Assembly (NCBI GenBank): GCA_023703615.1
Contig: CP097971.1
Span: 982,315 to 1,046,314 of the forward strand
Length of the DNA stretch: 64,000 nucleotides
Direction: 5' to 3'
Source of the DNA: SAR86 cluster bacterium
GTDB lineage: Bacteria > Pseudomonadota > Gammaproteobacteria > Magnimaribacterales > D2472
Of the stretch, positions 1 to 62,740 are shown piece by piece. The notes under the pieces are model-generated. The model did no database searches. It saw only the letters and a list, made by a program, of their open reading frames with translations, and was not told where the DNA came from. The translations under genes were made by a program, and so were the position numbers. How positions within the stretch are numbered: the stretch's first letter is position 1; every line of letters begins with the position of its first letter.

Positions 1-909
1 ATTTATAGCAGGAATCGCCCTAGAGGCGCCAAAAACAAATATGCCTAAATCTAATAATATATCTGATGAAACTCCACTTTGAACACTATATAAAATTACA
101 TAAGTTATTGATATAACTATAATAACTGATTCTAAAATAGTCTTTATAGCAACTTGGGCTGTAGCAGCACGAACATTTGCATGAGCGTATGTCAAAGCGT
201 ATTTTTTTACCAAATTTGAGAAATATTTTTCAGCTTTAAGTAATTTAATTTCTCTTAAACCATTTATCCCATTATGAACGGTCGAAGTCATTTTAGCTGA
301 GTGGTTATTTGAAATTTCGCCATATTTCTTTATTTTTGGCTTTATAAAATACTCGCTTATTAAAAATAAAATAGATGCTGCTCCAAAAGCTAAAAAAAAC
401 AGTGTAGAGTTTATATAAATTAGATAAAAAGATATCGCTGCTAGAATTACGATGTCAGCGCATAGTCTAAGAATTGACCAAAGGAATGTATGTGAAAATT
501 GAGCACATACCTCTAAAATTCTTTGAGAATATTGACCTGGATCAATTCGTGTAAAACGTTCATATGACATCGCTTGATAATTCTTCATTAACCTTGTTCT
601 TAACGTTGCTCCAAATGTTACACAGTAATGCCATAGTTTGTAACTTAAAAATATTATCATTACCCCTCTTAATGCAAAAATTGATGCAACAATAATCAAC
701 AGCATATTATTCGATATTGATCCAGAATCTAAAGAATCAGAAATTGTAGTAACAATCTTGGATATTACTGCTCCAATGCTAGCAATACTAAGCATTTCAA
801 GGCTAGCTGTAATTAAAAATAAAAATGCAAAAAGAAAAAGATTAGACTTTTCATCAGACAAGATGAAAAGTGCTTTTTTAAGATCTGATAGATTAGCTTT
901 CTGGGTCAT
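1..909 (-). CDS. ABC transporter transmembrane domain, polysaccharide flippase-like (partial, C-terminus outside window)
   Basis: The reading frame opens at an ATG at 909 and runs off the left edge after 303 codons without a stop. It shows several long hydrophobic segments (about residues 24-45, 68-88, 150-185 and 250-275) separated by charged loops, as in a type I ABC exporter membrane domain. The Walker A/B nucleotide-binding half must lie outside the window. The setting in a sugar-nucleotide and glycosyltransferase cluster suggests a PglK/MsbA-like flippase for a lipid-linked glycan, which is inference. It overlaps the end of the following-upstream dehydrogenase gene by 17 bp, so translation is probably coupled. 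A lipid or peptide exporter is the main alternative. Confidence 0.75.
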   Translation of the reverse strand, partial: MTQKANLSDLKKALFILSDEKSNLFLFAFLFLITASLEMLSIASIGAVISKIVTTISDSLDSGSISNNMLLIIVASIFALRGVMIIFLSYKLWHYCVTFGATLRTRLMKNYQAMSYERFTRIDPGQYSQRILEVCAQFSHTFLWSILRLCADIVILAAISFYLIYINSTLFFLAFGAASILFLISEYFIKPKIKKYGEISNNHSAKMTSTVHNGINGLREIKLLKAEKYFSNLVKKYALTYAHANVRAATAQVAIKTILESVIIVISITYVILYSVQSGVSSDILLDLGIFVFGASRAIPAIN

Positions 910-1648
910 GTAATAAAGATCCAATTCCACCGTCAAAATTTAATATTGAGCCATTTAAAAATTTAGAGTTATATTTTCCTAATAATGATATTAGTTTTGC
1001 AATTTCTTCTGGCGTCCCTATGCTGTTTGTTGGATGGTATTTTTTTAATTTATTTAAATGTGCTTTATTTTTTAATCCATCTAGTAACATTGGTGTTGAA
1101 ATTGCAGATGGCTCAATGGATAAAATTGATATATCAGAACCTAGTTCTAATGCAAGAGATTTTGTGATCATTCTCAGAGCAGATTTGCTGGAAGCATAAA
1201 TACTAAACCCTTTTTTTGTAAGCCTTGAATGTATGCTGCCAATATTAATTACCTTGCCAGATGAAAATGTTAATTCATTATATAAACCTTGAATCAAAAT
1301 GAAAGGTGCAAATGTATTTATTGCAAATACTTTTTCAACATCATCTTTTTTAATAGATTTCAAGTCTTTCACAACTTGAAAGGCGGCATTATTAATTAAA
1401 AGATCGACTGAATTTTCAGGCAGACTTTTCTTGATCTCATATAATTTTTTATCTCTATAAATTGTATCTGTATAAATCTTACATAAATCAATAGATAAAT
1501 ATATATCCACGTTCTTATTATTTATAGATTTTTTATGAATATCTATGCCGATAACAAAATAATTCTCATTTTTTAGTTCTTTTGCAGCTGCATTGCCAAT
1601 ACTTCCATTTGTACCTGTAATAATTGCGGTTTTAGTATTCATGTTCAC
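893..1648 (-). CDS. Short-chain dehydrogenase/reductase of the polysaccharide locus
   Basis: This 251-residue protein is a classical SDR. A TGTNGSIG dinucleotide-binding turn lies near residue 11, NNAA near residue 86, a catalytic Ser around 137, and the YASSK Tyr/Lys pair near 150. It probably reduces or oxidises a sugar or sugar-acid hydroxyl with NAD(P)H. The substrate cannot be read from the sequence. Its start overlaps the stop of the hydroxyacid dehydrogenase gene by 17 bp. Neighbours (CMP-sugar synthetase, 2-hydroxyacid dehydrogenase, lactonase) suggest work on an acidic sugar destined for a surface glycan. A fatty-acid-type ketoreductase is less likely in this setting. A second ATG two codons in is an equally good start. 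Confidence 0.85.
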   Translation of the reverse strand: MNMNTKTAIITGTNGSIGNAAAKELKNENYFVIGIDIHKKSINNKNVDIYLSIDLCKIYTDTIYRDKKLYEIKKSLPENSVDLLINNAAFQVVKDLKSIKKDDVEKVFAINTFAPFILIQGLYNELTFSSGKVINIGSIHSRLTKKGFSIYASSKSALRMITKSLALELGSDISILSIEPSAISTPMLLDGLKNKAHLNKLKKYHPTNSIGTPEEIAKLISLLGKYNSKFLNGSILNFDGGIGSLLHDPES

Positions 1649-2582
1649 ATTTTAAGAAATCAGTTAAAGTTTTAATTGCTTGTTCACTTGCTTTTATAAC
1701 AGCATCTTTGGTGTTTGATGCATTGTGTGATCCTAAAATTATGTTGCTTCTATTAATAAGCAAAGAATTTTTATTTAGGGGTTCCTTTTCATAAACATCT
1801 AAAGCTAAATATCTTATTTTGCCTGAATCTAAATACTTATTTAATATAGTTTCATCTATTAATGGTCCCCTGCTTACATTTACAATACTAACACCATCTT
1901 TCATATCTCTAATTGAGTTATCATTTATGATATGGAATGTTGAGTCATTTAGTGAGCATGTGAGAATAATAAAATCAGCTTCATTAATTTTTTCCGGCCA
2001 ATTATTTATAGTGACTTCAATTTTTTCTTCGTTTAATACAAAAGGATCGTATACAGAAACATTCATTTCGCACGCTATCAATCTCTTTGCAAGTTGCTTG
2101 CCTATATCTCCAAAACCAATGATAGCAGCATTTTTTCCAGATAAAGATTGCCCTGTTGGTTTATACCAATGTCCACATCGAACAGCTCTATCAATTTCGT
2201 AGGTGCCTCTAGCACAACCAATTACATAACCTAGTGCGATATCAGCAACCTCAGAACCAAAAATATTTGGTGTATTGGTTATTGGAATATTTAACTCTTT
2301 GCATGCTTCAAAATCAACGTTATCGACTCCTATTCCCCATTTAACTGCAGCTTTAAGTAAGCCGGTCCTGCCTGCTTCAAAAACCTCTTTAGTTGCAGGA
2401 TCATCGCCAATAATCCAGCCATGATGTAATGGTACTAATTTTATTAATTCACTAATTGACAATGTCTGAACAAAATTTGGAGTCGTAATCGATATATTTT
2501 TTTGTTCAAGCAGATCTTTAAAATGATCAATCATCAAGAGCATAGGTGGGCATGTAATCAATACTTTTAATTTCTCAGTCAT
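1632..2582 (-). CDS. D-isomer-specific 2-hydroxyacid dehydrogenase
   Basis: The 316-residue product belongs to the phosphoglycerate/formate dehydrogenase family. It has the NAD-binding turn GFGDIG near residue 155 and the catalytic set: Arg in VNVSRGPL, Glu in DVYEKEPL and His in GSHNAS. It oxidises or reduces a D-2-hydroxy acid. SerA is unlikely because there is no C-terminal ACT domain and the gene sits inside a polysaccharide locus. It overlaps the CMP-sugar synthetase gene by 8 bp and the SDR gene by 17 bp, which implies one transcript and a shared pathway. The substrate is unknown; an acidic sugar or its open-chain acid is the contextual guess. Confidence 0.85.
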   Translation of the reverse strand: MTEKLKVLITCPPMLLMIDHFKDLLEQKNISITTPNFVQTLSISELIKLVPLHHGWIIGDDPATKEVFEAGRTGLLKAAVKWGIGVDNVDFEACKELNIPITNTPNIFGSEVADIALGYVIGCARGTYEIDRAVRCGHWYKPTGQSLSGKNAAIIGFGDIGKQLAKRLIACEMNVSVYDPFVLNEEKIEVTINNWPEKINEADFIILTCSLNDSTFHIINDNSIRDMKDGVSIVNVSRGPLIDETILNKYLDSGKIRYLALDVYEKEPLNKNSLLINRSNIILGSHNASNTKDAVIKASEQAIKTLTDFLKCEHEY

Positions 2583-3264
2583 TATTATTTTTTAATATTA
2601 ATTCTTTAAGCTTAAATGCAAAGTCCCAATCACTTGGAGTATCAATATCTATAGACTCAATCATTGGAGTTTCAAACATAATTGGTCGCATTCCGATCCT
2701 TGCATTAGTAATACTAAAACTCTTTTTAGTAAAAATATATAAGATTGAATTTTCTTCAAAAAATGGCTCCAGCTCTTGTGTTTGAATTAAATTATTTGGA
2801 TCGTGATTAATTGGTTGACATTTATGATCATAAAAACGACTTTGAAACTTATTTACAGAAAAAAGTGAATCTGAATCTCTGTTATTACAGCAATCTAGAA
2901 AGGTATTGATAGCTTTATTAATAGTAAATTTTGTTATTAGAGGATTTGTAGTGTGTGTCATTAGGTATATTTCAGATTCTATATTTTGCAAGTCATCTTT
3001 AATAATTTTATTCATCGAGACCTCGTCACCGCAAAGATTACTATCACGGTCTCTTATTATAATTCTTTCCGATTCGTTGATACCATGATCCATAATATTA
3101 TCCTTGGCATCTGTATTAATTACTATTTGGTCAATTAATTCTGAAGCAAGCAACTCATTTAAAACCCACATAAATAATGGCTTACCATTAAATAATTTAA
3201 AATTCTTATTTGGAACTCTCTGGCTGTTAGCCTTCATTGGCAATAATGCTGTTATTTTATTCAT
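2575..3264 (-). CDS. Acylneuraminate cytidylyltransferase-like CMP-sugar synthetase
   Basis: The 229-residue protein opens with the NeuA/KdsB-type nucleotide-binding signature (LLPMKANSQRVPNKN, about residues 8-22), which grips CTP, and ends with DIDTPSDWDFA, a common end in this family. It should activate a 2-keto-3-deoxy sugar acid as its CMP derivative for a glycosyltransferase. No nonulosonate synthase (NeuB-like) is visible here, so the sugar cannot be named. The partner genes could lie beyond the left edge. Overlaps of 8 bp with both flanking genes put it firmly in the operon. CMP-legionaminate, CMP-pseudaminate or an unusual acid are all possible. Confidence 0.82.
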   Translation of the reverse strand: MNKITALLPMKANSQRVPNKNFKLFNGKPLFMWVLNELLASELIDQIVINTDAKDNIMDHGINESERIIIRDRDSNLCGDEVSMNKIIKDDLQNIESEIYLMTHTTNPLITKFTINKAINTFLDCCNNRDSDSLFSVNKFQSRFYDHKCQPINHDPNNLIQTQELEPFFEENSILYIFTKKSFSITNARIGMRPIMFETPMIESIDIDTPSDWDFAFKLKELILKNNND

Positions 3265-4150
3265 TAGTTTTTTTAGGATAAAAATATTCTTCCTTTCTTT
3301 TTTTGGATAATTTTCTGTGTGATTGATTGCCTAAATATGTACCTGAGTTTAAAGCAAGTCTGAATTTAATTATACTCAAGAAGTTTTCTTTCAAACATTT
3401 TTCGTTTAACGCCTCACTAAAATCTAAAAAAATGCCGCTTATGAAATATCTTATTGCATCTAAGAGTGTTACTTGAATTTCTGGAGATATCTGTTGAAGA
3501 GCCATAGCCTCTCTTTCATATCTGTGCTTAGTTTGAGACCATGTCTCATTATGAATGTGGAAAACTTTAGCCTCTGCCTTATATGCAATTAATAGCCCTG
3601 CTTTTGAAAGCCTGGAAGCAAGATCCATATCCTCAAGCCCAGTAAGTTTTTCGTTAAATTTATAGTCTTTCCATACTGATTTTAGAAGAGCTGAATTTGC
3701 ATTATTACAAAAAATTCCATTTTGAGGGATTTGTGATTTTTCAGGAAAGTATTTTTTAAACCATTGTTTTTCGCTAAATTTTGTTGTGTCTCGTCCAACT
3801 TGTGATCCATAAACATAACTAATATTATTTTTTAAGATTGGTTCAATGAGATTAATTAACCAGTTTTTATCACATGGGATACAGTGGCCACTTATATAAC
3901 AAACTATATCACCAGAAGTTTTTTCAGTTCCCATGTTCAAAGATCGACCAAATGTAAATTGATGTTTTTTTATATAAGTTATTACAGAATTGTATTTCTT
4001 TGCAATGTTGATGGTATTGTCAGTTGAACCAGAATCAATTAAAACTATCTCAAGTTCATTACCATCTAAATTTTGATTTCGAAGAGATGATAAAAGCTCT
4101 TCTAAATACTTTTCTTCATTTAAAGTTCTTATTACTATTGAAATTATCAT
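3257..4150 (-). CDS. Family 2 glycosyltransferase
   Basis: This 297-residue protein begins with the GT-A signature of family 2 (SIVIRTLNEEKYLEELL, then IDSGSTDNT near residue 40). It has an acidic GLEDMDLASRL motif near 170 that matches the acceptor/catalytic-base region. The usual DxD site is replaced by a less typical SGHC stretch near residue 88, so metal binding is uncertain. It probably transfers a sugar onto a lipid-linked or growing chain at the inner face of the membrane. No membrane segment is obvious. It overlaps the lactonase gene by 35 bp and the CMP-sugar gene by 8 bp. Donor and acceptor are unknown. Confidence 0.85.
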   Translation of the reverse strand: MIISIVIRTLNEEKYLEELLSSLRNQNLDGNELEIVLIDSGSTDNTINIAKKYNSVITYIKKHQFTFGRSLNMGTEKTSGDIVCYISGHCIPCDKNWLINLIEPILKNNISYVYGSQVGRDTTKFSEKQWFKKYFPEKSQIPQNGIFCNNANSALLKSVWKDYKFNEKLTGLEDMDLASRLSKAGLLIAYKAEAKVFHIHNETWSQTKHRYEREAMALQQISPEIQVTLLDAIRYFISGIFLDFSEALNEKCLKENFLSIIKFRLALNSGTYLGNQSHRKLSKKRKEEYFYPKKTNE

Positions 4151-4958
4151 AGCTATATTTTAACTTAAAAGTATGTCCGCCAAGTTGAATATCTTTTGAA
4201 TTGCCATCTATACTAGCTGCGGAAGTTATGTATAAGCCAGAATTCTTTGCATCATAAGCACAATTAGTAGGTCTGGTAAATGGTAATCTTATAACATCTA
4301 CAACCTTTCCATTTTCATTATAGATATTTATACATGACCCATCCCAAATTGAAATTGCGAGGAGATTTCCAAAAATTATACATCCGCCATCTGGCGTTTT
4401 ATTTTTATTACAAAAATTCCAAACTTTTTTGTAAATCTTCTTATTTTCAATATCTAAAGTACATCTGTAAATTTTGCTCTCTGAAGAGTCTGTAATTAGA
4501 ATATCTGAATTCTCTAATTCAATAAAAGTATTTGGTATTTTGCAGTTCCAGTCTAACAAGGTTATATTTTTATTCTTCGAAACATGAAAGATACCACCAA
4601 TTTTACGATTGGGAGTTTTCTGATGCATAAACCCTAGAAGATAACTTCCGTCTCTAAGCAAACACCCATCATTCAGTCTATATTCTGAGGAATCAAAAAT
4701 ATTTTCAAATGTTATTTCTTGTTCTATGGTTTGTGGAGAGATTGAATAAATTCCTTTATTTGCGCCCACAAGGAGTCTATTCTTTATTTTTGATAAAATA
4801 ACAGAAGGAATAAAATCAAGAATAACATTGAATTCTTTATTTGAAGAAAATATTCTTTTAGATTCAATGTCAACCCAATATACAGCGCTGCCATCAAAAA
4901 AAATACCTTCTCCTAGCTTTGATTTTAATTTTGAAATTTGTTGCAAATCACAATTCAT
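4116..4958 (-). CDS. SMP-30/gluconolactonase family protein
   Basis: The 280-residue product has the beta-propeller signature of the SMP-30/LRE family. KLGEGIFF near residue 13 carries the metal-binding Glu, RLNDGC lies near 93, PDGGC near 190 and RPTNCAYD near 230. Known members open sugar lactones with a divalent metal. Placing it among a 2-hydroxyacid dehydrogenase, an SDR and a CMP-sugar synthetase suggests it hydrolyses a lactone intermediate of an acidic sugar, which is inference. Its ATG overlaps the galE stop as ATGA, and its 3' end overlaps the glycosyltransferase by 35 bp. This family is unusual in O-antigen-type loci. Confidence 0.8.
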   Translation of the reverse strand: MNCDLQQISKLKSKLGEGIFFDGSAVYWVDIESKRIFSSNKEFNVILDFIPSVILSKIKNRLLVGANKGIYSISPQTIEQEITFENIFDSSEYRLNDGCLLRDGSYLLGFMHQKTPNRKIGGIFHVSKNKNITLLDWNCKIPNTFIELENSDILITDSSESKIYRCTLDIENKKIYKKVWNFCNKNKTPDGGCIIFGNLLAISIWDGSCINIYNENGKVVDVIRLPFTRPTNCAYDAKNSGLYITSAASIDGNSKDIQLGGHTFKLKYSYDNFNSNKNFK

Positions 4959-5947
4959 AGATTGTTTGATCTATGCCAGTTAATTGCGTCATTGATAATA
5001 TTTTCAATATTTGAATTATTTGGATTCCAATTTAAAAGTGAGTTTGCTTTTGCTGAATCAGCAACTAAAACTGCAGGATCTCCATTTCTTGGGGGTGCAA
5101 TTTCATAAGATATTTTATTTAAATTCAATTTGTTCTTCACTGTATTTATAACTTCCAAAACCGAAAAACCACTTCCATTTCCAAGATTAAAAATATGAGA
5201 TTTAGAATTTTTATCAAGAAAGTCAAAGGCTTTTATATGTGCTGATGCAATGTCATTTACATGGATATAATCTCGAACACATGTTCCATCTTTTGTTTGA
5301 TATGTATCTCCAAAAATTTTTAACTTTTTAGAATTTTTTTGTGATATTAATTTCATAATCACATTTGGTATTAAATGGGTTTCTGGCTCATGAAATTCTC
5401 CTATAGTCCCCAGAGGATCTGCTCCTGCTGCATTAAAATATCTAAATGAAATTGAGCTTACTCCATAAGCTATGAAAGCATCTTCTAAAATTTTTTCAAT
5501 AAACAGCTTGCTTTGACCATAAGGGTTTTTAGGCTTGGTTTGATGATTTTCGTTTATAAGTTCTGACTTTGGATCACCATATACAGCAGCTGAAGAAGAG
5601 AATATTATCTTATCAATATCTGAATCTATACAAGCGTTTAAAAGGTTAATAGACCCTGAAACATTATTCTCATAATATAAACTGGGTTTTTGTGCAGACT
5701 CACCCACGAGTGATTTTCCTGCAAAGTGCATCACATAATCAAAGCTGTTTTTTGCAAAGATACCTTTTAATTTATTATTATCTAATAGATCACAATCAAA
5801 GAACTCACAATCTTGAAGAGCCCATTTATTACCAGTAGAAAAATTATCTAAAATTACAGGATTGTCTCCATTTTCAATTAATTTTTTTACTGCATGCGAG
5901 CCAATGTATCCGGCCCCACCCGTTACAAGAACATTTTTTTTACTCAT
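4955..5947 (-). CDS. galE: UDP-glucose 4-epimerase
   Basis: The 330 residues match GalE in length and motifs. GGAGYIGSH at residues 10-18 binds NAD, SSSAAVYG holds the catalytic Ser, and YGQSK holds the Tyr/Lys pair near residue 143. The family's RDYIHVND motif is also present, near 227. It interconverts UDP-glucose and UDP-galactose (or the N-acetyl forms) and feeds galactose into the surface glycan. It follows ugd by 5 bp and overlaps the lactonase gene by 4 bp. Specificity for N-acetylated sugars cannot be judged by eye. Confidence 0.93.
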   Translation of the reverse strand: MSKKNVLVTGGAGYIGSHAVKKLIENGDNPVILDNFSTGNKWALQDCEFFDCDLLDNNKLKGIFAKNSFDYVMHFAGKSLVGESAQKPSLYYENNVSGSINLLNACIDSDIDKIIFSSSAAVYGDPKSELINENHQTKPKNPYGQSKLFIEKILEDAFIAYGVSSISFRYFNAAGADPLGTIGEFHEPETHLIPNVIMKLISQKNSKKLKIFGDTYQTKDGTCVRDYIHVNDIASAHIKAFDFLDKNSKSHIFNLGNGSGFSVLEVINTVKNKLNLNKISYEIAPPRNGDPAVLVADSAKANSLLNWNPNNSNIENIINDAINWHRSNNL

Positions 5948-5952
5948 ATTAT

Positions 5953-7125
5953 TTATATATCTCTCTCAAAGATGTCTCTGGTAAAAATTTTATCTTTTGC
6001 ATGTAATATTTGAGCATCCAATCTATTTGCAACAATTATATTTGAATTTTTTATGAAATCCTTGATATTTTTTTCTACTTCAATACCATCAAAGCTAGTC
6101 TCAACAATTGTAGGGTCAAATATCAAAATAGATATGCCATTATGTCTTAGCTTTTCAATTACATCTAAAATTGAAGCAAATCTAAAATTGTCAGAATCTT
6201 GTTTCATTGATAATTTGTATATGCCAACAGTTTGAGGCTTTAAGCTAAGTATTTGATTAGCTATAAAAGCTTTTCTTGTAGAATTCGATGAGACTATTGC
6301 TTGCATTAAATCTTGGGGAACATCACTAAAATTTGCTAGTAATTGTTTAGTATCTTTAGGTAGGCAATATCCTCCATATCCAAAAGAAGGATTATTATAG
6401 TTGTTACCAATTCTTTCATCTAAGCATACTGCTTTAATAATTTGCTTTACATTTAGGCTTTTCATCATTCCATAGCTATCAAGCTCATTAAAATATGCTA
6501 CTCTCATTGCCAAATAAGCATTTGAAAAGAGTTTCACAGCTTCTGCTTCAGTAGATTGCATAAAACAAATTTCAATTTCTTTTTTTAATGATGCTTCTTG
6601 CAATAATTTCGCAAATTTTTTTGATTCATCACATTCTCCACCTATTACAATTCTTGATGGATATAGATTATCATTCAAAGCATGGCCTTCTCGCAAAAAT
6701 TCAGGTGAGAATATAATATTTTCAAAATTTAATATGTTTTTAATTTTAGCTGTAAAACCAACGGGTACAGTAGATTTTATAATTATAAATATATTGGGAT
6801 TAAATTTAATTGCGTCTTCAATGACTCGTTCAACACTAGAAGTATTAAAAGAGTTTGTTAAGTCATCATAATCTGTTGGTGTTGCAATTATTACATAATC
6901 AGCATTTGTATATGCTTTTTCTGCATCCAGAGTTGCTTGTAAATTTAAGTTTTTGTTAGATAGATAATTTGATGCTTCACCATCATTAATGGGTGAAATA
7001 CCTTTATTTATGTCTTTAACCTTGCTTTCATTAATATCAAGACATGTCACGTCATTATTTTTTGAGAGTAAAATTGATAATGAGAGTCCTACATAACCAA
7101 TACCTACTACAGTTATTTTATTCAT
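5953..7125 (-). CDS. ugd: UDP-glucose 6-dehydrogenase
   Basis: From the ATG at 7125 the protein is 390 residues and starts MNKITVVGIGYVGLSL, the normal N-terminus of the family with its NAD-binding turn. Opening at 7158 instead would add 11 unlikely residues and overlap manC, so the internal ATG is preferred. The catalytic Cys lies in GYGGYCLPKD near residue 247, and the EAVKLFSNAYLAMRV helix is present. It oxidises UDP-glucose twice to UDP-glucuronate. It resembles the short Ugd of E. coli and Vibrio rather than the UDP-HexNAc dehydrogenases. It lies between manC and galE in the capsule/O-antigen operon. Confidence 0.92.
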   Translation of the reverse strand: MNKITVVGIGYVGLSLSILLSKNNDVTCLDINESKVKDINKGISPINDGEASNYLSNKNLNLQATLDAEKAYTNADYVIIATPTDYDDLTNSFNTSSVERVIEDAIKFNPNIFIIIKSTVPVGFTAKIKNILNFENIIFSPEFLREGHALNDNLYPSRIVIGGECDESKKFAKLLQEASLKKEIEICFMQSTEAEAVKLFSNAYLAMRVAYFNELDSYGMMKSLNVKQIIKAVCLDERIGNNYNNPSFGYGGYCLPKDTKQLLANFSDVPQDLMQAIVSSNSTRKAFIANQILSLKPQTVGIYKLSMKQDSDNFRFASILDVIEKLRHNGISILIFDPTIVETSFDGIEVEKNIKDFIKNSNIIVANRLDAQILHAKDKIFTRDIFERDI

Positions 7126-7135
7126 AGAAGCTTTT

Positions 7136-8572
7136 TTATACGCGACCATAATTGTCATCTAAGCGCACTATATCGTCTTCACCTAAATATGATCCATATT
7201 GGACTTCTATTAATATCAATTCATCTTTACCAATATTGGTAAGTCTATGTTTGTCGCCTAAAGGTATGTGCCTATGAACTCCGACTGAGGTCTCATATTC
7301 ATCTTCGCCAACTTGAACAAGGGCTGTACCTCTAACAACAACCCAGTGCTCTGCTCTTTTATGATGGTATTGCAAACTAAGTTGTTGTTCTGGCTTCACA
7401 GTAATTTTCTTAACTTGATAGCCATCTTCAAAAATAAGTGTCGTATATGTTCCCCATGGTCGTCTTACTGTTGATGGTAGATCAAATTTTTCCTTAAAAA
7501 AATCATTACCATTTTGAAGAGTTTCAACTATGTGCTTTACTTTATGACTTTCAGATTTTTTAGCTACCAGCAAAGCGTCATGAGTATCAATAATTGATAA
7601 ATCATCTACACCTGCGGTAGCAATAACTTTCTTAATGTGACTTTCACTATGAACATGTATATTTGATGAATCAATATTTAATATGTTAGCGTTATTGGAG
7701 CTTCCAATGGAGTTATCATTTTTGTCTTTATCATATTCTTGACTTAATGAATCCCAAGAGCCTACATCCGACCATGAAAATGAAACTGGAATTAAGGTAA
7801 CATCATCTGATTTCTCCATAACCGCATAATCAATACTCTCATCGGGCATATTCATAAAAATTTTGTCATCAAATCTGTAGATACTATCTTCATTAATGAC
7901 ATTTTTATGAGTCTCAAGACTGCTATTGTGTATATCTTTTGCATGAATATTAATATTATTCAGTATCGATTTAACTGAAAAGCAAAACATACCACTATTC
8001 CAGAAATGCTTTTCACTTTTTAAATACTTATTTGCTCTATCTAATGAGGGTTTTTCAATAAAACGTTTAGCTTTTTGAATCTCATTGGAGATTTCATTGA
8101 CTTCGATATAACCATAGCCCGTTTCAGGAAATGTTGGCTTTATGCCGAATACAACTATTGAGCCATTAGAACACTCATTAAATGCACTTGAAACATTTTC
8201 TTCAAATTTTGGTAAGTCTCCAATTAGATGGTCTGATGGAAGTACCAAACATGACGTATCCTTTCCAAATTTTTCTTTTACTATCATAGAAGCAAGGGTA
8301 ATTGCTGGAGCAGTATTCCTTCCAACTGGCTCAAGTATGTATGTTATATTCATGTCAATGCCCATGGCATCTACAAGGTCTTTAGTTAAAAAATAATGAT
8401 CTTGATTAGTAACAATTACCAAATTATTACTGACAAGCTTAGCTCGATCAATTGTATGCTCCAACAAAGTTTTGCCAGAAACTTCCATGAAAGGTTTTGG
8501 AAATGTTCTTCTTGAAACAGGCCATAATCTCGAACCAGAGCCACCTGATAAAATTACAGTTACTTTTTTCAT
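7136..8572 (-). CDS. manC: Mannose-1-phosphate guanylyltransferase / mannose-6-phosphate isomerase
   Basis: At 478 residues this is a bifunctional type II enzyme (AlgA/ManC/RfbM). The N-terminal nucleotidyltransferase has LSGGSGSRLWPVSRR at residues 8-22 and the FWNSGMF and FIEKP motifs. The C-terminal cupin (about 370-470) carries the metal-binding QYHHKRAEHW cluster of the isomerase. It makes GDP-mannose from fructose-6-phosphate together with the phosphomannomutase encoded near 62 kb. It follows wzz by 9 bp and probably shares its promoter. Whether GDP-mannose is used directly or converted further is not visible, as no gmd or fcl gene is in the window. Confidence 0.93.
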   Translation of the reverse strand: MKKVTVILSGGSGSRLWPVSRRTFPKPFMEVSGKTLLEHTIDRAKLVSNNLVIVTNQDHYFLTKDLVDAMGIDMNITYILEPVGRNTAPAITLASMIVKEKFGKDTSCLVLPSDHLIGDLPKFEENVSSAFNECSNGSIVVFGIKPTFPETGYGYIEVNEISNEIQKAKRFIEKPSLDRANKYLKSEKHFWNSGMFCFSVKSILNNINIHAKDIHNSSLETHKNVINEDSIYRFDDKIFMNMPDESIDYAVMEKSDDVTLIPVSFSWSDVGSWDSLSQEYDKDKNDNSIGSSNNANILNIDSSNIHVHSESHIKKVIATAGVDDLSIIDTHDALLVAKKSESHKVKHIVETLQNGNDFFKEKFDLPSTVRRPWGTYTTLIFEDGYQVKKITVKPEQQLSLQYHHKRAEHWVVVRGTALVQVGEDEYETSVGVHRHIPLGDKHRLTNIGKDELILIEVQYGSYLGEDDIVRLDDNYGRV

Positions 8573-8581
8573 TTATTATAT

Positions 8582-9514
8582 TTAATTTTTTACCCTATTT
8601 AAGTTCAAAATGTAATGCTTAAATAGAACAATGAAAATACCAAAAGCAAAACCTAAAACTGCGCCAATAATGCATATTACACTTCTAGTTGGTCTTGATT
8701 TTTTTTCAGGCACATAAGGCGGATCTATTTGCGATAGAGAATAATCTGTTTTAATTTTTGCTAACATTTGGGTCTTCATCTGCCCTTCTATCATTTTATT
8801 TATAGAATTCCTAATTTCAGCAACTTGTGTCTTACTAATCTGATTTTCAAGATAACCGAGTGCATTGGATGATTCAAGTAAATCTTGCTCGCGTATCATA
8901 AGATTAATCTCATCTATAATCAGGTCTATAAGCTCTTTTGCATAAAAAGGAGATATATGCTCTATCTCTATCTTGATGAAACCATTGGAGTTATTTTCTT
9001 CAATATTAAGCAAATTTTTATATTTAATATGTGCATCAAGTAACGAAGGTTTTAATGATTTGTTTGTTTGAATATCTTTTTTCCAAACTTTGGAAATTGA
9101 GTCATATAAAGAATTATCATATTTAATTTCTTGTGTAGATTTGTTATATGAGGTTTGAGCATATAGTCCTGGCAAAACCCAATCATTTTTTAAAAGCCTT
9201 TCCAAAAAAACTCTTGAATTTAATGTGGCTAATACTAAATCTTTTTTGCTACCAGATTGAGAAGGAAGCGATATCCCAGCAAAAGATGCTATTGAGCCGT
9301 ATTCTGATGCCATAGAAGATAATCCACCAAGGCTATTTGAATCCTGATTTACAGAAAGTAAGCTTGATGATCTATAGTAATCTTGTAAAGACAAAGCAAA
9401 AAACACTGAAGAAATCGAAAATAAAAAAACTGTAATACAAATTGTAAACTTTCCTTTCCAAAGTGTTTCGAAAAATTCTAGTATGTTTATATGATCGTCA
9501 TCATAATTATCCAT
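8582..9514 (-). CDS. wzz: Wzz/LPS O-antigen chain-length determinant protein
   Basis: The 310-residue protein has the polysaccharide co-polymerase architecture: a short cytoplasmic N-terminus, a first membrane helix around residues 19-41, a long periplasmic helical domain, a proline-rich PPYVPEKKSRPTRS stretch, and a second membrane helix near 280-302. Such proteins set the modal length of Wzy-made polysaccharides in the inner membrane. There is no tyrosine-kinase domain, so it is the Wzz rather than the Wzc type. A good ribosome-binding site (AAGGGGA) precedes the ATG. It is the first gene after tRNA-Leu, as Wzz is the first gene of the O-antigen locus next to ihfB in Pseudomonas aeruginosa. 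Confidence 0.85.
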   Translation of the reverse strand: MDNYDDDHINILEFFETLWKGKFTICITVFLFSISSVFFALSLQDYYRSSSLLSVNQDSNSLGGLSSMASEYGSIASFAGISLPSQSGSKKDLVLATLNSRVFLERLLKNDWVLPGLYAQTSYNKSTQEIKYDNSLYDSISKVWKKDIQTNKSLKPSLLDAHIKYKNLLNIEENNSNGFIKIEIEHISPFYAKELIDLIIDEINLMIREQDLLESSNALGYLENQISKTQVAEIRNSINKMIEGQMKTQMLAKIKTDYSLSQIDPPYVPEKKSRPTRSVICIIGAVLGFAFGIFIVLFKHYILNLNRVKN

Positions 9515-54392: not shown

Positions 54393-55971
<1,579 letters not shown>

Positions 55972-56017: not shown

Positions 56018-56893
56018 ATGAATAAAATCATACTTAATATTATTATTTTTTTTTGGAAACTTTTAATAAGGTTACCCAGATCTTTTCAAATAAAAATTTC
56101 AAAAATCCTCGGGGTAATAATCTGGACACTTCCTTTTAATAGAAATAAGTATTCAAAGATTAATATAGAATCATGTTTAAAAGATTTTTCAAATCAAAAT
56201 AAGACACAAATTTATAGGCAAAATATTATTGCGTCAGGAAGAATTATTTTTGATACAGGCATTTCATGGTTTTGGTCTAATAAAAAAATAAATCGATCAA
56301 TCAACTATGAAATGATTGGAGAAGAAAAAATATTAAAAGAACAACAACAAAAAAATGGCGTTTTATTAATTTTTAAACATTCTTTACATCTTGAACTCGA
56401 CGCAAGATTAATAGGTATGAACTTAGAGGCTTATGGCGTTGAAAGATCTCATAATTCTAAAATATTTAATGATATTCAATCAACTGGTAGAAACAAAAGC
56501 TTATTAGGAAGTGCGGATAGAAGAGAACCAATTAAATTTATTAGGTGGTTAAAAAATGGAAAAACAGTTCTATATGCACCTGATCAAGACTATGGAAATA
56601 AAAATTCAATAACCGTCAATTTCTTCGGTCTTCCTGCCGCAACTATCAAAGCTCCATATAAAATTTTAAAGTCAACTAAATGTAAATTATATTTTGTAAA
56701 TAGTTATATCAAAAAAGATAAATATTTTTTAGAATTTGAAAAATTAAATCTAAATGAATCAAGCGAAAAAGAATTTTTACAAGAATTAAATATCTTTATA
56801 GAAAGTAAAATTAGAAATCATCCACATGAATATCTTTGGCAACATAGAAGATTCAAATCTACTCTTGGAAAAGAAAATTTTTATGGAAAATAA
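56018..56893 (+). CDS. Lipid A biosynthesis acyltransferase, LpxL/HtrB-like
   Basis: The 291-residue protein has an N-terminal membrane anchor (about 2-25). It has the H-x4-E catalytic motif in FKHSLHLELDAR near 119, YAPDQDYGNKNS near 185, VNFFGLPAATIKAPYKI near 199-215, and HEYLWQHRRFK near 270. It should transfer an acyl chain to Kdo-lipid A. Placement opposite waaA fits. Whether it is the LpxL or LpxM type, or the only late acyltransferase in the genome, is not decidable here. It overlaps the following methyltransferase by 11 bp. Confidence 0.9.
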   Translation: MNKIILNIIIFFWKLLIRLPRSFQIKISKILGVIIWTLPFNRNKYSKINIESCLKDFSNQNKTQIYRQNIIASGRIIFDTGISWFWSNKKINRSINYEMIGEEKILKEQQQKNGVLLIFKHSLHLELDARLIGMNLEAYGVERSHNSKIFNDIQSTGRNKSLLGSADRREPIKFIRWLKNGKTVLYAPDQDYGNKNSITVNFFGLPAATIKAPYKILKSTKCKLYFVNSYIKKDKYFLEFEKLNLNESSEKEFLQELNIFIESKIRNHPHEYLWQHRRFKSTLGKENFYGK

Positions 56894-57497
56894 CTTAACA
56901 GATTTTAAAAAAATTAAGGGGTTTTTATGTCATGAGGAAGGACTATTTTTGCATAAGTTAGCAAAAATAAATTGTTCAAAATCTTTTTCAGTTGAAATTG
57001 GATCATATTGTGGTAAATCCGCATGTTACATAGCTGAAGCATGTAAAGAAAATAAAACTTATCTTATTTCAATAGATCATCATCAAGGTTCTGAGGAACA
57101 ACAGTTCGGTGAAGAATACTTTGACAAAGAAATATATGATTATAAAAAAAAAGTTGTTAATACCCTTCCTCTATTTTTAAAAAATATAAAAAAATTTAAT
57201 CTATCTAATTATATTAAGCCATTAGTTCTCTCATCTGAGGAAGCCTCAAAAATAGTGGATAATGAAATAGATTTAGTTTTTATCGATGGAAGTCATACAT
57301 ATAAATCTGCAAGATTAGACTTCAATTGTTGGAAAAATAAAATTAAGGTTGGTGGCATACTTGCCATCCATGATATTTATGATTCAGAACAAGAAGGGGG
57401 ACAAGCCCCAAGAGAGATTTATGAAACAGCTCTAAAAGAAAACTTTGTCTTAGTTGATAGAGTAAAAAGTTTGGTGGCACTAAGAAAGATCTCTTAA
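56883..57497 (+). CDS. Class I SAM-dependent methyltransferase (Methyltransf_24 type)
   Basis: From ATG 56883, overlapping the acyltransferase end, the protein has 204 residues. The longer frame from 56826 lies inside the acyltransferase gene. It has SAM-binding SVEIGSYCGKSACYIAE near 35-51, the DLVFIDGSHTYKSARLDF segment near 128-145, and GGILAIHDIYD near 157. The family includes sugar O-methyltransferases. Its start (DFKKIKGFLCHEEG) recalls methyltransferases that I remember sitting with 'prenyltransferase-like' and GT4 genes in actinobacteria, a recollection that needs a search. It converges with the toroid gene (18-bp overlap). Confidence 0.82.
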   Translation: MENNLTDFKKIKGFLCHEEGLFLHKLAKINCSKSFSVEIGSYCGKSACYIAEACKENKTYLISIDHHQGSEEQQFGEEYFDKEIYDYKKKVVNTLPLFLKNIKKFNLSNYIKPLVLSSEEASKIVDNEIDLVFIDGSHTYKSARLDFNCWKNKIKVGGILAIHDIYDSEQEGGQAPREIYETALKENFVLVDRVKSLVALRKIS

Positions 57498-58445
57498 AAG
57501 TAAAAAAACATTTTCATTTGTTTTGTTGAGATTACATAAAGCATGAGCGCCAATAATTATAGCAGCATTAGACCATGTTGAATTTTCTTCAGGCCAAAGT
57601 ATATCTAATTCATATTGATATCCAGTTGGGAAAATGCCATCTGGATTTTGATATTTTAAAATATCTTTAAAAATATCTTTAGCAACCCTATGCTCACCAC
57701 AAATAATTGCAGCTAGCAAACACTCAGAGCTTTCCGCTACTGTTACCCATGGTTCTTCCTTTACACATTTTACTCCTAACCCACTTACATAAAAATCTTC
57801 TAAATTTTTTTTAAAAACTTGTTGATTTTTCTTTACTCCAGCCATGTAGGGATAATAAAAATCCATTGAAAAACGCGATCTATCCTCACCATCTCTATCA
57901 AACTTCTGATCCCATAATGATAGATCTAAATTAACTGAATTATTATTTTTATATAGTTTTTCAGACATAATATTTGACATTGTTGCAGTAATTAATGAGT
58001 TGTCAGAATAACCTTTTTCATTCTTTGCCCAATAAAAATATCCATCATTGTCTTTAAAAGAATTTAAAGCATTAAAAATTTTATCGATTTTAAATTCGAA
58101 TTCTTTAAACTCTTTAGATTTTCTTTTATGTAGTAATGAAGCTTGTTTTAGTGGAAAAATAATATATGGAGCATGGTGACTTTCAAAATAAAATTTACTA
58201 GGTTTACAATTTTGATATTCAGAATAAATTAGTCCATCATCGTTTAGATTTTTAAAAAACCATTCGACTCCTTTATCATAAGCCTCCCATTCTTCGTATA
58301 TTGCAAGAGCAATTAAACACTCACAGTGATCCCATGGATCACATTTTCCTTTTTCATCCCATTGTATTGAACCATCGTTTAATTGATTTTTTATTATCCA
58401 ATCTAATGCAGGTCTTAAAAGAGATTTATATTTATCCCAATTCAT
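57480..58445 (-). CDS. Prenyltransferase/squalene-cyclase-like alpha-toroid protein of unknown function
   Basis: The 321-residue protein shows repeated helical pairs with 'QW-like' turns: NDGSIQWDEKG near 22, DDGLIYSEYQ near 70, DNDGYFYWAKN near 132, and NPDGIFPTGYQ near 265. This fits an alpha/alpha toroid (terpene cyclase, prenyltransferase or glycoside-hydrolase-like). KCDPWDHCECLIALAI near 34 is its most distinctive motif. There is no DxDD terpene-cyclase site, so cyclase activity is doubtful. It is coupled (4-bp overlap) to a methyltransferase and a GT4 gene. A role in making or trimming a glycolipid is inference; the family has no established reaction that I know of. Confidence 0.7.
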   Translation of the reverse strand: MNWDKYKSLLRPALDWIIKNQLNDGSIQWDEKGKCDPWDHCECLIALAIYEEWEAYDKGVEWFFKNLNDDGLIYSEYQNCKPSKFYFESHHAPYIIFPLKQASLLHKRKSKEFKEFEFKIDKIFNALNSFKDNDGYFYWAKNEKGYSDNSLITATMSNIMSEKLYKNNNSVNLDLSLWDQKFDRDGEDRSRFSMDFYYPYMAGVKKNQQVFKKNLEDFYVSGLGVKCVKEEPWVTVAESSECLLAAIICGEHRVAKDIFKDILKYQNPDGIFPTGYQYELDILWPEENSTWSNAAIIIGAHALCNLNKTNENVFLLLRDLS

Positions 58446-59149
58446 TTTTTTTCAAAATAAAGAGCAATGCTTTTTCCAAGGATAGGATTGAAAAATTGAT
58501 CAATTAGATCAATCCATAAAGGTTTCTTAAGAATATGAGTTTCAAGAAATTTTTTATATGCTTTTATAAAAATATTAGTATCCTGCGTGTTCCAAAACAA
58601 ACATCTAAGCCACCAATACGGAGAATGAATAGAATGAAACCTTTCAGAACATAAAAATAAAAAATCTTCATCACATATTTCTTTTATAAGCTTTCTTTTT
58701 TTAAAAATTCTTAGATGGCCGCCAGGTTGATTTTGATAGTCTTTAGATAGAAACCAACATATCTTTTCTGGAAATTCAGAGGGCACACTTGCTAAAAATT
58801 TACCACCAGATTTTAAGACTCTATTAATTTCCTTTATTGCATCATTATACTCATGAAGATGTTCGAGCACCTCAGAACATATTACTAAATCAAAAGTATT
58901 ATCTTTAAATGGCAAGCAATATGCTGATCCACTTGTAAATGAGGTATCCTTGTTTGATATATCTTTAAAATACTCAAGACCCTCTAAAGATTTATCCAAA
59001 GATTCTAAATCTGGATCAAGACCAACACATTTGATGTTAGGAAATTTTTCCATCACTGCAAATATATGTCGACCTTCGCCACAACCTAAATCTAGCATTA
59101 TCCCATGATCATTTGAGAGTGTAATTTTATTGAAATTAAATGTTAGCAT
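58442..59149 (-). CDS. Class I SAM-dependent methyltransferase (Methyltransf_11 type)
   Basis: The 235-residue protein has SAM motif I MLDLGCGEGRHIFAV near 17-31, the acidic DPD loop after strand 2, and DLVICSEVLEHLHEYNDAI near 87-105. These are the motifs of UbiE/methyltransferase 11 proteins. The target is probably a sugar or lipid of the envelope, judging from the GT4 gene upstream (14-bp overlap) and the toroid gene downstream (4-bp overlap). There is no membrane helix. A ubiquinone methyltransferase role is unlikely, since ubiG is elsewhere and the context is glycan. Confidence 0.83.
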   Translation of the reverse strand: MLTFNFNKITLSNDHGIMLDLGCGEGRHIFAVMEKFPNIKCVGLDPDLESLDKSLEGLEYFKDISNKDTSFTSGSAYCLPFKDNTFDLVICSEVLEHLHEYNDAIKEINRVLKSGGKFLASVPSEFPEKICWFLSKDYQNQPGGHLRIFKKRKLIKEICDEDFLFLCSERFHSIHSPYWWLRCLFWNTQDTNIFIKAYKKFLETHILKKPLWIDLIDQFFNPILGKSIALYFEKK

Positions 59150-60383
59150 TGTGCTCCTTGATGGTTTTCATAAAAATTTGTTCATAATTATCTATTACAT
59201 TTGTCCAATTAAACCTTTCAATAACATATTCTCTTGCTTTTAATGAGTTTTTATTAAATTTCTCTCTATTTTTGAAAATTTCTTCTACTGCTTCGCAAAT
59301 CGCCTCAGGATTTTTTGAAGGTATTAAAGTAGCATATTCTTTAACTAAATCAGGAATCGATGCAACATTTGTTGCAATTAATGGAATTGCGCAACTCATT
59401 GCTTCTATTGCAGGATAGCCAAAACCTTCATAAAGAGATGTGACAAGTGCAATTGAACTTTCAGCATATTGAAGTGATATATCTTCTTTACTTAATCCAG
59501 TTTTAAAATGAACAACGTCTATAATTCCTAAATTTTCTATGAGCTTTTGTGTATGTCCATCTTGCTTTATCTTTCCAATAACAATTAATTCAATTTTAGG
59601 ATACTTTTTTCTTAACTTACTTATTGCCTTTAATGAAAAATCTAAACCCTTGAGAGCCACATCTGCACTTGCTGTTGTTATTAATCTAAAATCTTTTCTT
59701 ATAATATTCTTATGTGGTAAAAATCTTTCGGTATCAATTCCGTTATCAATAACACTTATATCTTTACAAAGGCATTTAAAATCTGTTTGAATATCTTTTT
59801 TTGAGTTTTTAGAAACTGTAATTATTTTTAGTAACTTTGGAGCAACTTTTTTCTGCATTTTCAAAAAAGAATACCAACGATGTCGTGATAATTTGTATGT
59901 AAAACTATTTGAAAGGGTTAATTCAAATTCAAAATCTTTTGATATTGGATGATGTATTATTTCAATAAGAGGAAATATTTTTTGAATCTTCAATAAACCA
60001 TAGCTTAATGATTGGTTATCAACGACAATATCGTACTTTTTATCCTTTATCCATGAAGAAGCTCTATAGCCAAAAGTTCTCATCTCAGGAAATCCTCCAA
60101 ATAAGACTGAAAAAAATTCATAATAATCTATGATAGATTTTCCTTTTTTATAAAGAAACTTTTTTACTCTATCCTTAAACGAAAATGACTCAAACAAATC
60201 TAAACCAGGCAGCTTTATTAAATTTACATTATTACTGAGTATGGGGTATGGTAGTCCTGATAATACATCAACCAAATGTCCTCTTTCAGAAAGTCTTTTT
60301 GAAATGTCATGGATGTATATTCCTTGCCCTCCTCCATATGGAGCACTTCTATAACTTAAAATTAGTATCTTTAATTTTTGCAA
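59136..60383 (-). CDS. Family 4 glycosyltransferase
   Basis: The 415-residue GT-B protein has an N-terminal YGGGQGIYIHDISKRLSERG near 17-36 (the acceptor-side Gly loop). The C-terminal donor-binding E-x7-E motif lies in SLYEGFGYPAIEAMSC near 312. It transfers an activated sugar to a lipid or glycan at the cytoplasmic membrane face. It is the first gene of the GT4-methyltransferase-toroid run, and its stop overlaps the methyltransferase start by 14 bp. It begins 6 bp after ilvE ends, so it is probably on the ilvE transcript. The donor is unknown. Confidence 0.87.
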   Translation of the reverse strand: MQKLKILILSYRSAPYGGGQGIYIHDISKRLSERGHLVDVLSGLPYPILSNNVNLIKLPGLDLFESFSFKDRVKKFLYKKGKSIIDYYEFFSVLFGGFPEMRTFGYRASSWIKDKKYDIVVDNQSLSYGLLKIQKIFPLIEIIHHPISKDFEFELTLSNSFTYKLSRHRWYSFLKMQKKVAPKLLKIITVSKNSKKDIQTDFKCLCKDISVIDNGIDTERFLPHKNIIRKDFRLITTASADVALKGLDFSLKAISKLRKKYPKIELIVIGKIKQDGHTQKLIENLGIIDVVHFKTGLSKEDISLQYAESSIALVTSLYEGFGYPAIEAMSCAIPLIATNVASIPDLVKEYATLIPSKNPEAICEAVEEIFKNREKFNKNSLKAREYVIERFNWTNVIDNYEQIFMKTIKEHNANI

Positions 60384-60389
60384 AAGAAT

Positions 60390-61310
60390 TTATTTGACGA
60401 AACTTAGCCAGTCTTTATATATTAAATTATTGCCAGAAACTATTTCAAGATATGTTCTTTGAAGTTTTTCAGTAACATCACCTCTTAATCCAATTCCTAT
60501 GCGTTGATTATCAATCTTTGTTATTGGCGTTATTTCAGCAGCAGTACCTGTAAAAAAAGCTTCATCACAATCAAGCAACTCATCAAATTTAAGATTTTTT
60601 TCAATAACATCATAATTAAAATCTTTTGCAATTTTAATTACAGATTGTCGAGTGATTCCATTCAAACAATGTTCAACTGTAGGAGTATAAATAATGTTAT
60701 CTTTTACAAAAAAGATATTTTCGCCACTTCCCTCAGAAACATAATTATTTTTATCAAGAAGTATGGCTTCATCTGCTCCTTTTTTTATAGCCTCATTAAC
60801 TGCCATAGTTGAATTAATATAAGTACCAATAATTTTATTGCCTGAATGAAGTGGATCACTATATTGCTTGTAAGAAGATTTAATAATTGAAATGCCTTTT
60901 ACTCTAGCTTCGGGGTCCATATATGAAGGCCATTCCCATGCAGCAATAGCAACGTTAACACTTAAGTCTTTAGCTCTAAGCCCAAGACCTTCACTACCTA
61001 AATATACAATTGGCCTTAAATAGCCTTCATCAAGATTGTTTATATTAAAAATCTCTTTTTGAATAGTATTTAGATAGTCTTTTGTATACGGGATTTCAAT
61101 GGAAATTTTATCTGCAGCCTCAAAAAGTCTCTTTGTATGATCTTCTAATCTAAAGATTGCTGCACCATTTTTAGTTTTATAGGCTCTAACGCCCTCAAAA
61201 ACACCTGTGCCATAATGTAACGTGTGAGATAAAATGTGAACAGAACTTTCATTCCATTTCTCAAAAGTTCCGTTTTTCCAAATAAATTTTGAATCAGTAT
61301 TTTTAAACAT
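60390..61310 (-). CDS. ilvE: Branched-chain amino acid aminotransferase
   Basis: The 306-residue class IV PLP enzyme has SHTLHYGTGVFEGVRAY near 28-44, the PLP lysine near 160 (GTYINSTMAVNEAIKKGADEA follows), and the family signature EGSGENIFFVKDN near 193-205. It transaminates leucine, isoleucine and valine. Its ATG has only an AGG directly before it. A promoter ends right at the start, suggesting a leaderless message. In Pseudomonas ilvE heads the LPS-core locus, and here it heads a GT4/methyltransferase run as well. Confidence 0.94.
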   Translation of the reverse strand: MFKNTDSKFIWKNGTFEKWNESSVHILSHTLHYGTGVFEGVRAYKTKNGAAIFRLEDHTKRLFEAADKISIEIPYTKDYLNTIQKEIFNINNLDEGYLRPIVYLGSEGLGLRAKDLSVNVAIAAWEWPSYMDPEARVKGISIIKSSYKQYSDPLHSGNKIIGTYINSTMAVNEAIKKGADEAILLDKNNYVSEGSGENIFFVKDNIIYTPTVEHCLNGITRQSVIKIAKDFNYDVIEKNLKFDELLDCDEAFFTGTAAEITPITKIDNQRIGIGLRGDVTEKLQRTYLEIVSGNNLIYKDWLSFVK

Positions 61311-61375: not shown

Positions 61376-62740
61376 ATGTCTGTTGATAGAACTATATTTC
61401 GAGAATATGACATTAGAGGTGTCTATCCATCTGATTTAAATGAAAAATCAATTGAGGTTATTGCAGATGCTATTTCAAAAAAATGCTTTAAAGAAAATAT
61501 AAGATCTGTTGTTGTTGGAAGAGACGGAAGAAATTCTGGTCAAAGCCTTTTGAAAGCTTTTTCGGATAGATTGATAAAAAATGGAATAAATGTAAAGAAT
61601 ATTGGTTTAGTGACGAGTCCAATTCTTTATTTTGCAGCAAAAAAAGAAGTTAATAAAAGTGGCATTATGATTACTGGGAGTCATAATCCAAAAAATTATA
61701 ACGGCTTAAAAATGATATTAAATGACGAGCCTGTATCTGGAAAGGAAATATTTAATTTAATTAACGAAGAAATAAAATTACCTTTACTAAATGCTAAAAG
61801 TGAAGAGATTGACATAATAGATGAATATATAGATGAAGTTTGTAAAAATATTTTCATAAAGACAAGAATTAGGGTTGTCCTCGATTCTGGTAATGGAGCT
61901 GCTGGCTGTGTAGCGCCAAAGCTATTTAAAAAATTAGGTTGTGATGTTATTGAGTTATTCAGTGAAATCGATGGTAATTTTCCTAATCATCATCCAGATC
62001 CTGGAAAGATTGAAAATCTGCAAGACTTGGTAAAAAGCGTAAGAGAAAATAATGCGGATTTAGGTATTGCTTTTGATGGAGACGGTGATCGTCTTGGAGT
62101 CGTTACCGAAAAAGGAGATATAATTTTTCCTGATAAAATAATGATGTTATTTTCAAAAGAAGTATTAAAAAGAAAAAAAGGTAAGGTAATTTATGATGTT
62201 AAATGTTCTAGAGATCTTGAATATATAATTAAAAAATATAATGGCGAACCAGTAATGTCTCCAACTGGTCATTTTCATATAAAAAATGCAATTAAAGAAA
62301 CCAAAGCTATTTTAGCTGGTGAAATGAGCGGACACATTTTTTTTAATGACATATGGTATGGTTTTGATGATGGACACTATGCTGGAGCAAGAATGGTAGA
62401 AATAATATCTAATTCCTCCAGAAATCTCTCTAGTATTATCGATGATTTTCCAAAATCATATTCAACTCCAGAATTAAATATAAGTGTTACTGATGATACA
62501 AAGTTTAAAATTATTAAAAAATTCACCGAAGAATGCGAAATTAAAGGCGATAAAATTTCTATTGATGGATTAAGAATAAATTTTAAAAATGGATGGGGTC
62601 TTATAAGAGCATCTAATACCTCTCCAAATTTAGTTTTGAGATTTGAAGGAAGTAGTGAAAATGATTTAAATATAATTAAAGATGAATTTATTTCTGAGCT
62701 TTCACGGATTTGTCCTGATGTTGATATACTAATTAATTAG
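61376..62740 (+). CDS. algC: Phosphomannomutase/phosphoglucomutase
   Basis: The 454-residue alpha-D-phosphohexomutase has the phosphoserine loop MITGSHNPKNYNG near 98-110, the metal-binding FDGDGDRLGVV near 236-246, the sugar-binding GEMSGHIFF near 318, and the C-terminal phosphate loop RASNTSPNLVLRFEG near 420. It makes mannose-1-phosphate for ManC and possibly glucose-1-phosphate for UDP-glucose. Its start ATIFREYDIRGVYP-like end is that of the AlgC/ManB group. It is 2 bp from slmA. Confidence 0.92.
   Translation: MSVDRTIFREYDIRGVYPSDLNEKSIEVIADAISKKCFKENIRSVVVGRDGRNSGQSLLKAFSDRLIKNGINVKNIGLVTSPILYFAAKKEVNKSGIMITGSHNPKNYNGLKMILNDEPVSGKEIFNLINEEIKLPLLNAKSEEIDIIDEYIDEVCKNIFIKTRIRVVLDSGNGAAGCVAPKLFKKLGCDVIELFSEIDGNFPNHHPDPGKIENLQDLVKSVRENNADLGIAFDGDGDRLGVVTEKGDIIFPDKIMMLFSKEVLKRKKGKVIYDVKCSRDLEYIIKKYNGEPVMSPTGHFHIKNAIKETKAILAGEMSGHIFFNDIWYGFDDGHYAGARMVEIISNSSRNLSSIIDDFPKSYSTPELNISVTDDTKFKIIKKFTEECEIKGDKISIDGLRINFKNGWGLIRASNTSPNLVLRFEGSSENDLNIIKDEFISELSRICPDVDILIN

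Follow-up and report, generated by a model that had tools for sequence, protein, structure and literature searches.

What do the four genes make that lie between ilvE and waaA in a SAR86 cluster bacterium (contig CP097971.1, positions 982,315–1,046,314, a stretch of 64,000 nucleotides referred to here as the window)? They encode a glycosyltransferase of family GT4, two methyltransferases (Methyltransf_11 and Methyltransf_24) and an α-toroid protein, next to a gene for an LpxL-like acyltransferase, and all are at the positions given in an initial annotation of the window, which had proposed a mobile glycolipid pathway with no described product. The four genes very probably constitute a biosynthesis cluster for methylmannose polysaccharide (MMP), an identification based on orthology, intact active-site residues, fold, gene order and distribution. 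MMP is an α-(1→4)-3-O-methylmannan of 11–14 units and, to our knowledge, decades of study have settled no role for it in mycobacteria. The genes of the cluster are as follows.

59136–60383, minus strand: manT, GT4 α-(1→4)-mannosyltransferase with GDP-mannose as donor (match to PDB entry 7qsg)
58442–59149, minus strand: meT3, putative 3-O-methyltransferase (Pfam Methyltransf_11 and cluster position)
57480–58445, minus strand: mmpH, MMP α-(1→4)-endomannosidase, the toroid, 321 residues (match to PDB entry 7qsj, and fold)
56883–57497, plus strand: meT1, 1-O-methyltransferase, convergent with mmpH (Methyltransf_24; match to PDB entries 6g7d, 6g80 and 6h40)

From the coordinates, manT and meT3 overlap by 14 bp, meT3 and mmpH by 4 bp, the convergent mmpH and meT1 by 18 bp, and meT1 and the neighbouring lpxL by 11 bp. 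The mycobacterial cluster has the order meT1–mmpH–pmeT3–manT (MHAS_04402–04405 in M. hassiacum; Maranha et al. 2023, PMC9883506), and the assigned reactions are those of an α-(1→4)-mannosyltransferase for ManT, an endomannosidase for MmpH and a 1-O-methyltransferase for MeT1 (PMC9883506). The window shares with it the four genes, their order (compared with the order of locus tags in PMC9883506), the catalytic residues tested (those of ManT and MmpH) and a supply of GDP-mannose; orientation was compared with Nonomuraea, an actinobacterium that is not a mycobacterium. It differs in its host, a gammaproteobacterium with a genome of 1.23 Mb (one contig, 95% complete, 31% GC), in the position of the cluster beside lipid A genes and in the identity of the proteins, which is 25–38%.

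The top PDB match of the GT4 protein is ManT (7qsg, E = 3e-77; second-best GT4 match, 2.6e-15; 38% identity over 398 amino acids), and the ManT residues Gly15, His142, Lys240, Glu313 and Glu321 correspond to Gly18, His144, Lys245, Glu319 and Glu327 of the window protein. The toroid has a sole significant relative among solved structures, MmpH of M. hassiacum (7qsj, E = 4.9e-25), of which Asp47, Asp50, Glu262, Glu265 and Trp315 are present as Asp36, Asp39, Glu238, Glu241 and Trp291. The Methyltransf_24 protein is assigned by sequence, matching the MeT1 structures 6g7d, 6g80 and 6h40 at E = 3.2e-32 (next match 2e-4) with 35% identity over 175 amino acids. The fourth protein has generic methyltransferase matches only; it is 36–40% identical to the cluster methyltransferases of Nonomuraea and Natrinema and is located where pMeT3 lies, between mmpH and manT, and we infer that it is a putative 3-O-methyltransferase. 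In Pfam and NCBIfam the toroid is without a family name, and the methyltransferases and the GT4 bear generic names only. A hydropathy scan of all four proteins detected no signal peptide and no membrane segment.

Which residue is the catalytic acid of MmpH is left open in PMC9883506. Among 133 distinct MmpH homologues, the base Glu262 is kept in all 133 and Asp47 in 132, the one variant being Glu, while Asp50 is replaced by Asn in 15, Nonomuraea included. Since Asp50 is replaceable in nature and Asp47 is nearly invariant, the comparison of sequences favours Asp47 as the catalytic acid.

The toroid was modelled with AlphaFold from 27 homologues, and the PDB was compared with the model by Foldseek. 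The prediction is a confident 321-residue α-toroid (pLDDT 88.6) with MmpH as its best match (7qsj, TM-score of 0.87 and E of 4e-22); other glycosidases and epimerases are well behind, and cyclases are further back (E ~2e-5). The GH15 and GH125 (α/α)6 hydrolases, which share the fold and the position of the catalytic base with MmpH (PMC9883506), are far weaker structural neighbours of the window toroid than MmpH is. In the model the toroid is an (α/α)6 glycoside-hydrolase barrel and no relative of terpene cyclases or prenyltransferases. A squalene–hopene or terpene-cyclase toroid, or a prenyltransferase one ('prenyltransferase-like' being the label in the initial annotation for a member of similar actinobacterial gene sets), was rejected by this fold.

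MmpH is present in 95 of the 107 genomes of the window's family, in all 10 genera and in 19 of 19 good genomes, and in SAR86-order genomes of two further families. All four genes were found at 23 SAR86-order loci read in context (window not counted), although at one of them (L059) the reading frames of manT and ilvE are broken. Outside SAR86, MmpH is scattered in the class sample, with five further gammaproteobacterial genomes, and the phylum sample yielded two genomes outside Gammaproteobacteria; 26 of 198 sampled genomes of the Smithella phylum and 11 of 146 sampled haloarchaea also carry it. A scan of named genomes for MmpH gave at least 594 matches, of which the best 80 include Halieaceae, Cellvibrionaceae, Spongiibacteraceae, Microbulbifer, Endozoicomonas, Parvibaculum, Syntrophaceae, Smithella, Desulfatitalea and, among haloarchaea, Natrinema gari. 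At the 70 of these named loci with enough flanking sequence, mmpH is adjoined by meT3 in 68, by manT in 67 and by meT1 in 56, the last convergent in 56 of 56.

The same order and orientation are found in Halieaceae, Cellvibrionales and Alphaproteobacteria, and syntrophs and haloarchaea keep manT–meT3–mmpH. A search of plasmids for copies from actinobacteria yielded a single record, from Nonomuraea, in which gene order and orientation are identical to those of the window. The neighbour counts bear out the earlier suggestion that the four genes recur across phyla as a unit with the same partners, and together with Nonomuraea they show that the actinobacterial gene set mentioned there is this same cluster. 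Of the 20 carriers searched, 19 have a meT1 gene somewhere in the genome, the exception being Natrinema gari (L142, G866), which has manT–meT3–mmpH and in whose genome meT1 was not found anywhere; judged by gene content, the haloarchaeal polymer may be without a 1-O-methyl cap. Two Desulfatitalea loci (L141 and L151) have mmpH with no manT or meT3 within reach and meT1 elsewhere in the genome; either the cluster is split there or the enzyme serves to degrade MMP.

Homologues have been described from Actinobacteria only (PMC9883506), and full-text searches of open-access literature, subscription papers being outside their scope and priority therefore uncertain, found no report of MMP or its genes outside Actinobacteria. 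What is new here is an MMP cluster that is near-universal in the SAR86 order and present beyond Actinobacteria in proteobacteria, syntrophs and haloarchaea. Streptomyces griseus has an acetylated MMP (PMC9883506), which belongs to the same polymer family outside mycobacteria but is likewise actinobacterial.

The surroundings of the cluster in the window, and a more distant gene bearing on its substrate, are as follows.

54742–55971, minus strand: waaA, 3-deoxy-D-manno-octulosonic acid (Kdo) transferase, flanking (Pfam Glycos_transf_N, 5.6e-56)
56018–56893, plus strand: LpxL-like lipid A acyltransferase, flanking (Pfam Lip_A_acyltrans, 4.8e-48)
60390–61310, minus strand: ilvE, branched-chain aminotransferase, flanking (Pfam Aminotran_4)
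61376–62740, plus strand: phosphomannomutase/phosphoglucomutase (pmm), neighbour outside the cluster proper (Pfam PGM_PMM I–IV)
7136–8572, minus strand: ManC-type mannose-1-phosphate guanylyltransferase/phosphomannose isomerase (TIGR01479, 498 bits against a cut-off of 373; Pfam)

GDP-mannose supply in the genome comprises the ManC-type enzyme and the phosphomannomutase/phosphoglucomutase. The latter is common to SAR86 loci and is the likely supplier of mannose-1-phosphate. The manC gene is itself part of a surface-glycan style gene cluster on the minus strand (893–9514), which also encodes a Wzz-like protein, a nucleotide-sugar dehydrogenase, an epimerase, an SMP-30-like protein, a GT2 glycosyltransferase, a cytidylyltransferase, a 2-hydroxyacid dehydrogenase and a short-chain dehydrogenase/reductase, and whose product is perhaps an unusual CMP-activated sugar.

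The cluster occupies the same ilvE–waaA address across SAR86. In the MmpH and ManT trees, SAR86 forms a single clade and does not fall within the actinobacterial rows. This argues for old inheritance rather than a recent mobile gain, and the supposed mobility of the pathway does not hold. Recent transfer from Actinobacteria was rejected by the same two trees, in which actinobacterial sampling is thin. Many Halieaceae also have the cluster beside waaA, some with ilvE upstream, which suggests that the waaA-side address is the ancestral location. Loci named SAR86 (L133 and L140) lie in the window's clade and have the same flanks, which, with the genome size of 1.23 Mb and the GC content of 31%, indicates that the host belongs to the SAR86 order (Magnimaribacterales).

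Within SAR86, part of the cluster has a history of its own (window 56883–58445 and loci L047–L050 and L060). In the mmpH and meT1 trees a single clade (support 100 and 98, respectively) unites the window's genus with two other genera and a further family; this clade is not recovered for manT, meT3, ilvE, pmm, waaA or lpxL. The window is 47–64% identical to the rest of this group in mmpH and 55–67% in meT1, whereas the group is 31–39% and 37–51% identical, respectively, to other SAR86. In approximately unbiased (AU) tests, whose p values are indicative only, the groupings having been named after the trees were seen, the grouping of the flanking genes was rejected for mmpH (p = 3e-62) and meT1 (p = 4e-4); the clade of the pair was rejected for manT (p = 0.02) and ilvE (p = 0.003) and not for meT3 (p = 0.095). 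Long-branch attraction as the source of the mmpH and meT1 grouping was set aside because the raw identities give the same pattern. The simplest reading, which these results suggest, is that mmpH and meT1 moved together within SAR86 as a swapped, co-adapted pair; such a joint move fits work by both enzymes on the same chain end.

An MMP-like product in SAR86 is probable from the gene content. ManT would extend a short oligomannoside with α-(1→4)-linked mannose, GDP-mannose being the donor, and MeT3 would methylate O-3 of the newly added units. MmpH would cleave completed chains at internal sites to give short primers, whose new reducing ends would be capped by MeT1 with a 1-O-methyl group, so that new chains would be copied from old ones. 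The polymer would remain in the cytoplasm, most likely wrapping and buffering long-chain acyl-CoA, which in SAR86 would come mainly from heavy β-oxidation of scavenged lipids; for this acyl-CoA role the chances appear about even. The methylglucose lipopolysaccharide (MGLP) of mycobacteria is likewise polymethylated and cytoplasmic, and acyl-CoA binding has been proposed for it too, but it is made from another sugar by other genes. A mycobacterial mmpH mutant is reported to grow more slowly at 15 °C.

MMP has been proposed to sequester acyl-CoA (PMC9883506), and SAR86 metabolism is centred on β-oxidation, with high gene copy (PMC11582366). Acyl-CoA dehydrogenase domains were counted per Mb in carriers and non-carriers of MmpH. 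Gammaproteobacterial carriers have 3.5–10 per Mb (~6.7), whereas the median of the 39 families of non-carriers is 0.8 (p = 8e-5, with SAR86 entered as a single count), and in the Smithella phylum carriers have 7.0 against 2.5 in non-carriers (p = 9e-9, uncorrected for kinship). Carriers rich in acyl-CoA dehydrogenases in two phyla fit the proposed acyl-CoA role.

The initial annotation had also pointed to a missing heptosyltransferase at this locus. The absence extends to the whole genome of the window, which has no PF01075 heptosyltransferase (WaaC/WaaF) and in which the best HldE domain match reaches 31 bits against a curated cut-off of 345; the heptose core is therefore missing genome-wide and not merely at the locus. 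PF01075 is absent from all 19 good genomes of the family (0/19), and HldE-level matches are confined to two or three of its 107 genomes. These matches are in G067, G003 and G080, the first two with PF01075 nearby on the same contig, and are possibly acquired heptose islands. SAR86 is likely to have a heptose-less core of its lipopolysaccharide (LPS), a matter separate from the MMP cluster; as an argument for the cluster, the missing heptosyltransferase is incidental.

Several observations weigh against the MMP assignment or the role attached to it. Identity of the window proteins to the characterised enzymes is only ~25–38%. In the window GT4, Lys replaces Asp293 of ManT, and in the window toroid His replaces each of the subsite residues Asn101 and Phe102 of MmpH, so that substrate details of both enzymes may differ. 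The activity of pMeT3 is unproven, mycobacteria included, and no report was found in the literature of MMP shown chemically in SAR86 or any proteobacterium. Acyl-CoA dehydrogenases are just as abundant in four gammaproteobacterial genomes of non-carriers, and the β-oxidation association is a correlation with limited kinship control and no proof. The enzymes could have been retuned in the window's SAR86 subgroup, towards a variant α-mannan with another reducing end, made with the alternative mmpH–meT1 pair. Such a change would accord with the mmpH and meT1 identities, which within the window's group are far above those to other SAR86, unlike manT, meT3 and the flanks, and with the His at Asn101 in 38 of the 133 distinct MmpH sequences. 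However, the tested catalytic residues are all kept, the content and order of the cluster are unchanged and sequence divergence by itself is no proof of a changed product, which leaves retuning unlikely.

The location beside lpxL and waaA in SAR86, and beside waaA in many Halieaceae, would suit an envelope glycan, in which methylmannose forms part of LPS in place of the heptose core. The absence of heptosyltransferase and HldE from nearly the whole family points the same way, as does the Oligotropha O-chain, a 3-O-methylmannose homopolymer (cited in PMC9883506). However, the same cluster is present in Actinobacteria (Nonomuraea) and manT–meT3–mmpH in haloarchaea, both of which are LPS-less. 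Moreover, all four proteins look soluble, the cluster includes an endo-hydrolase of its own product and is without a transporter, polymerase or ligase, and the Halieaceae and Spongiibacter loci lie beside different neighbours (rhamnose genes; a kinase). An envelope glycan is accordingly very improbable. The recurrence across phyla with the same partners would also be expected of the mobile glycolipid pathway with a terpene-cyclase-like toroid, as first annotated. That pathway has next to no likelihood, as the solved structure closest to the toroid is that of a glycoside hydrolase, cyclases matching far less well, and the genes form one SAR86 clade at one address. The reactions of MmpH, ManT and MeT1 are assigned (PMC9883506), a result the annotation had itself named as contrary to its proposal, and the product is therefore described, namely MMP. 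The soluble appearance of the enzymes and their occurrence in LPS-less organisms indicate a cytoplasmic polysaccharide pathway and leave the term glycolipid unsupported.

With the four genes read as an MMP cluster, a hitherto uncharacterised toroid and two methyltransferases that had no name gain a function in many genomes. A broader proposal, tentative and somewhat short of even chances, is that MMP is of ancient origin and serves lipid-eating microbes of more than one domain, nearly all SAR86 among them, as a cytoplasmic carrier of acyl-CoA. It would be built by two modules, manT–meT3 for elongation and mmpH–meT1 for recycling and capping, the latter swapped as a unit between lineages of SAR86 to give a variant reducing-end chemistry, with a haloarchaeon lacking the MeT1 cap. 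The carriers Halieaceae, Parvibaculum, Syntrophaceae, Smithella and Natrinema point to high acyl-CoA flux, and not to the mycobacterial envelope or fatty acid synthase I, as the common setting. The role is testable in culturable Gram-negatives (Spongiibacter, Zhongshania, Simiduia and Microbulbifer) and, provided that it is a carrier, in HIMB1674, an isolate of SAR86. Up to 6% of the surface-ocean community is SAR86 (PMC11582366), and an ocean group of that abundance probably spends scarce genome space on MMP genes.

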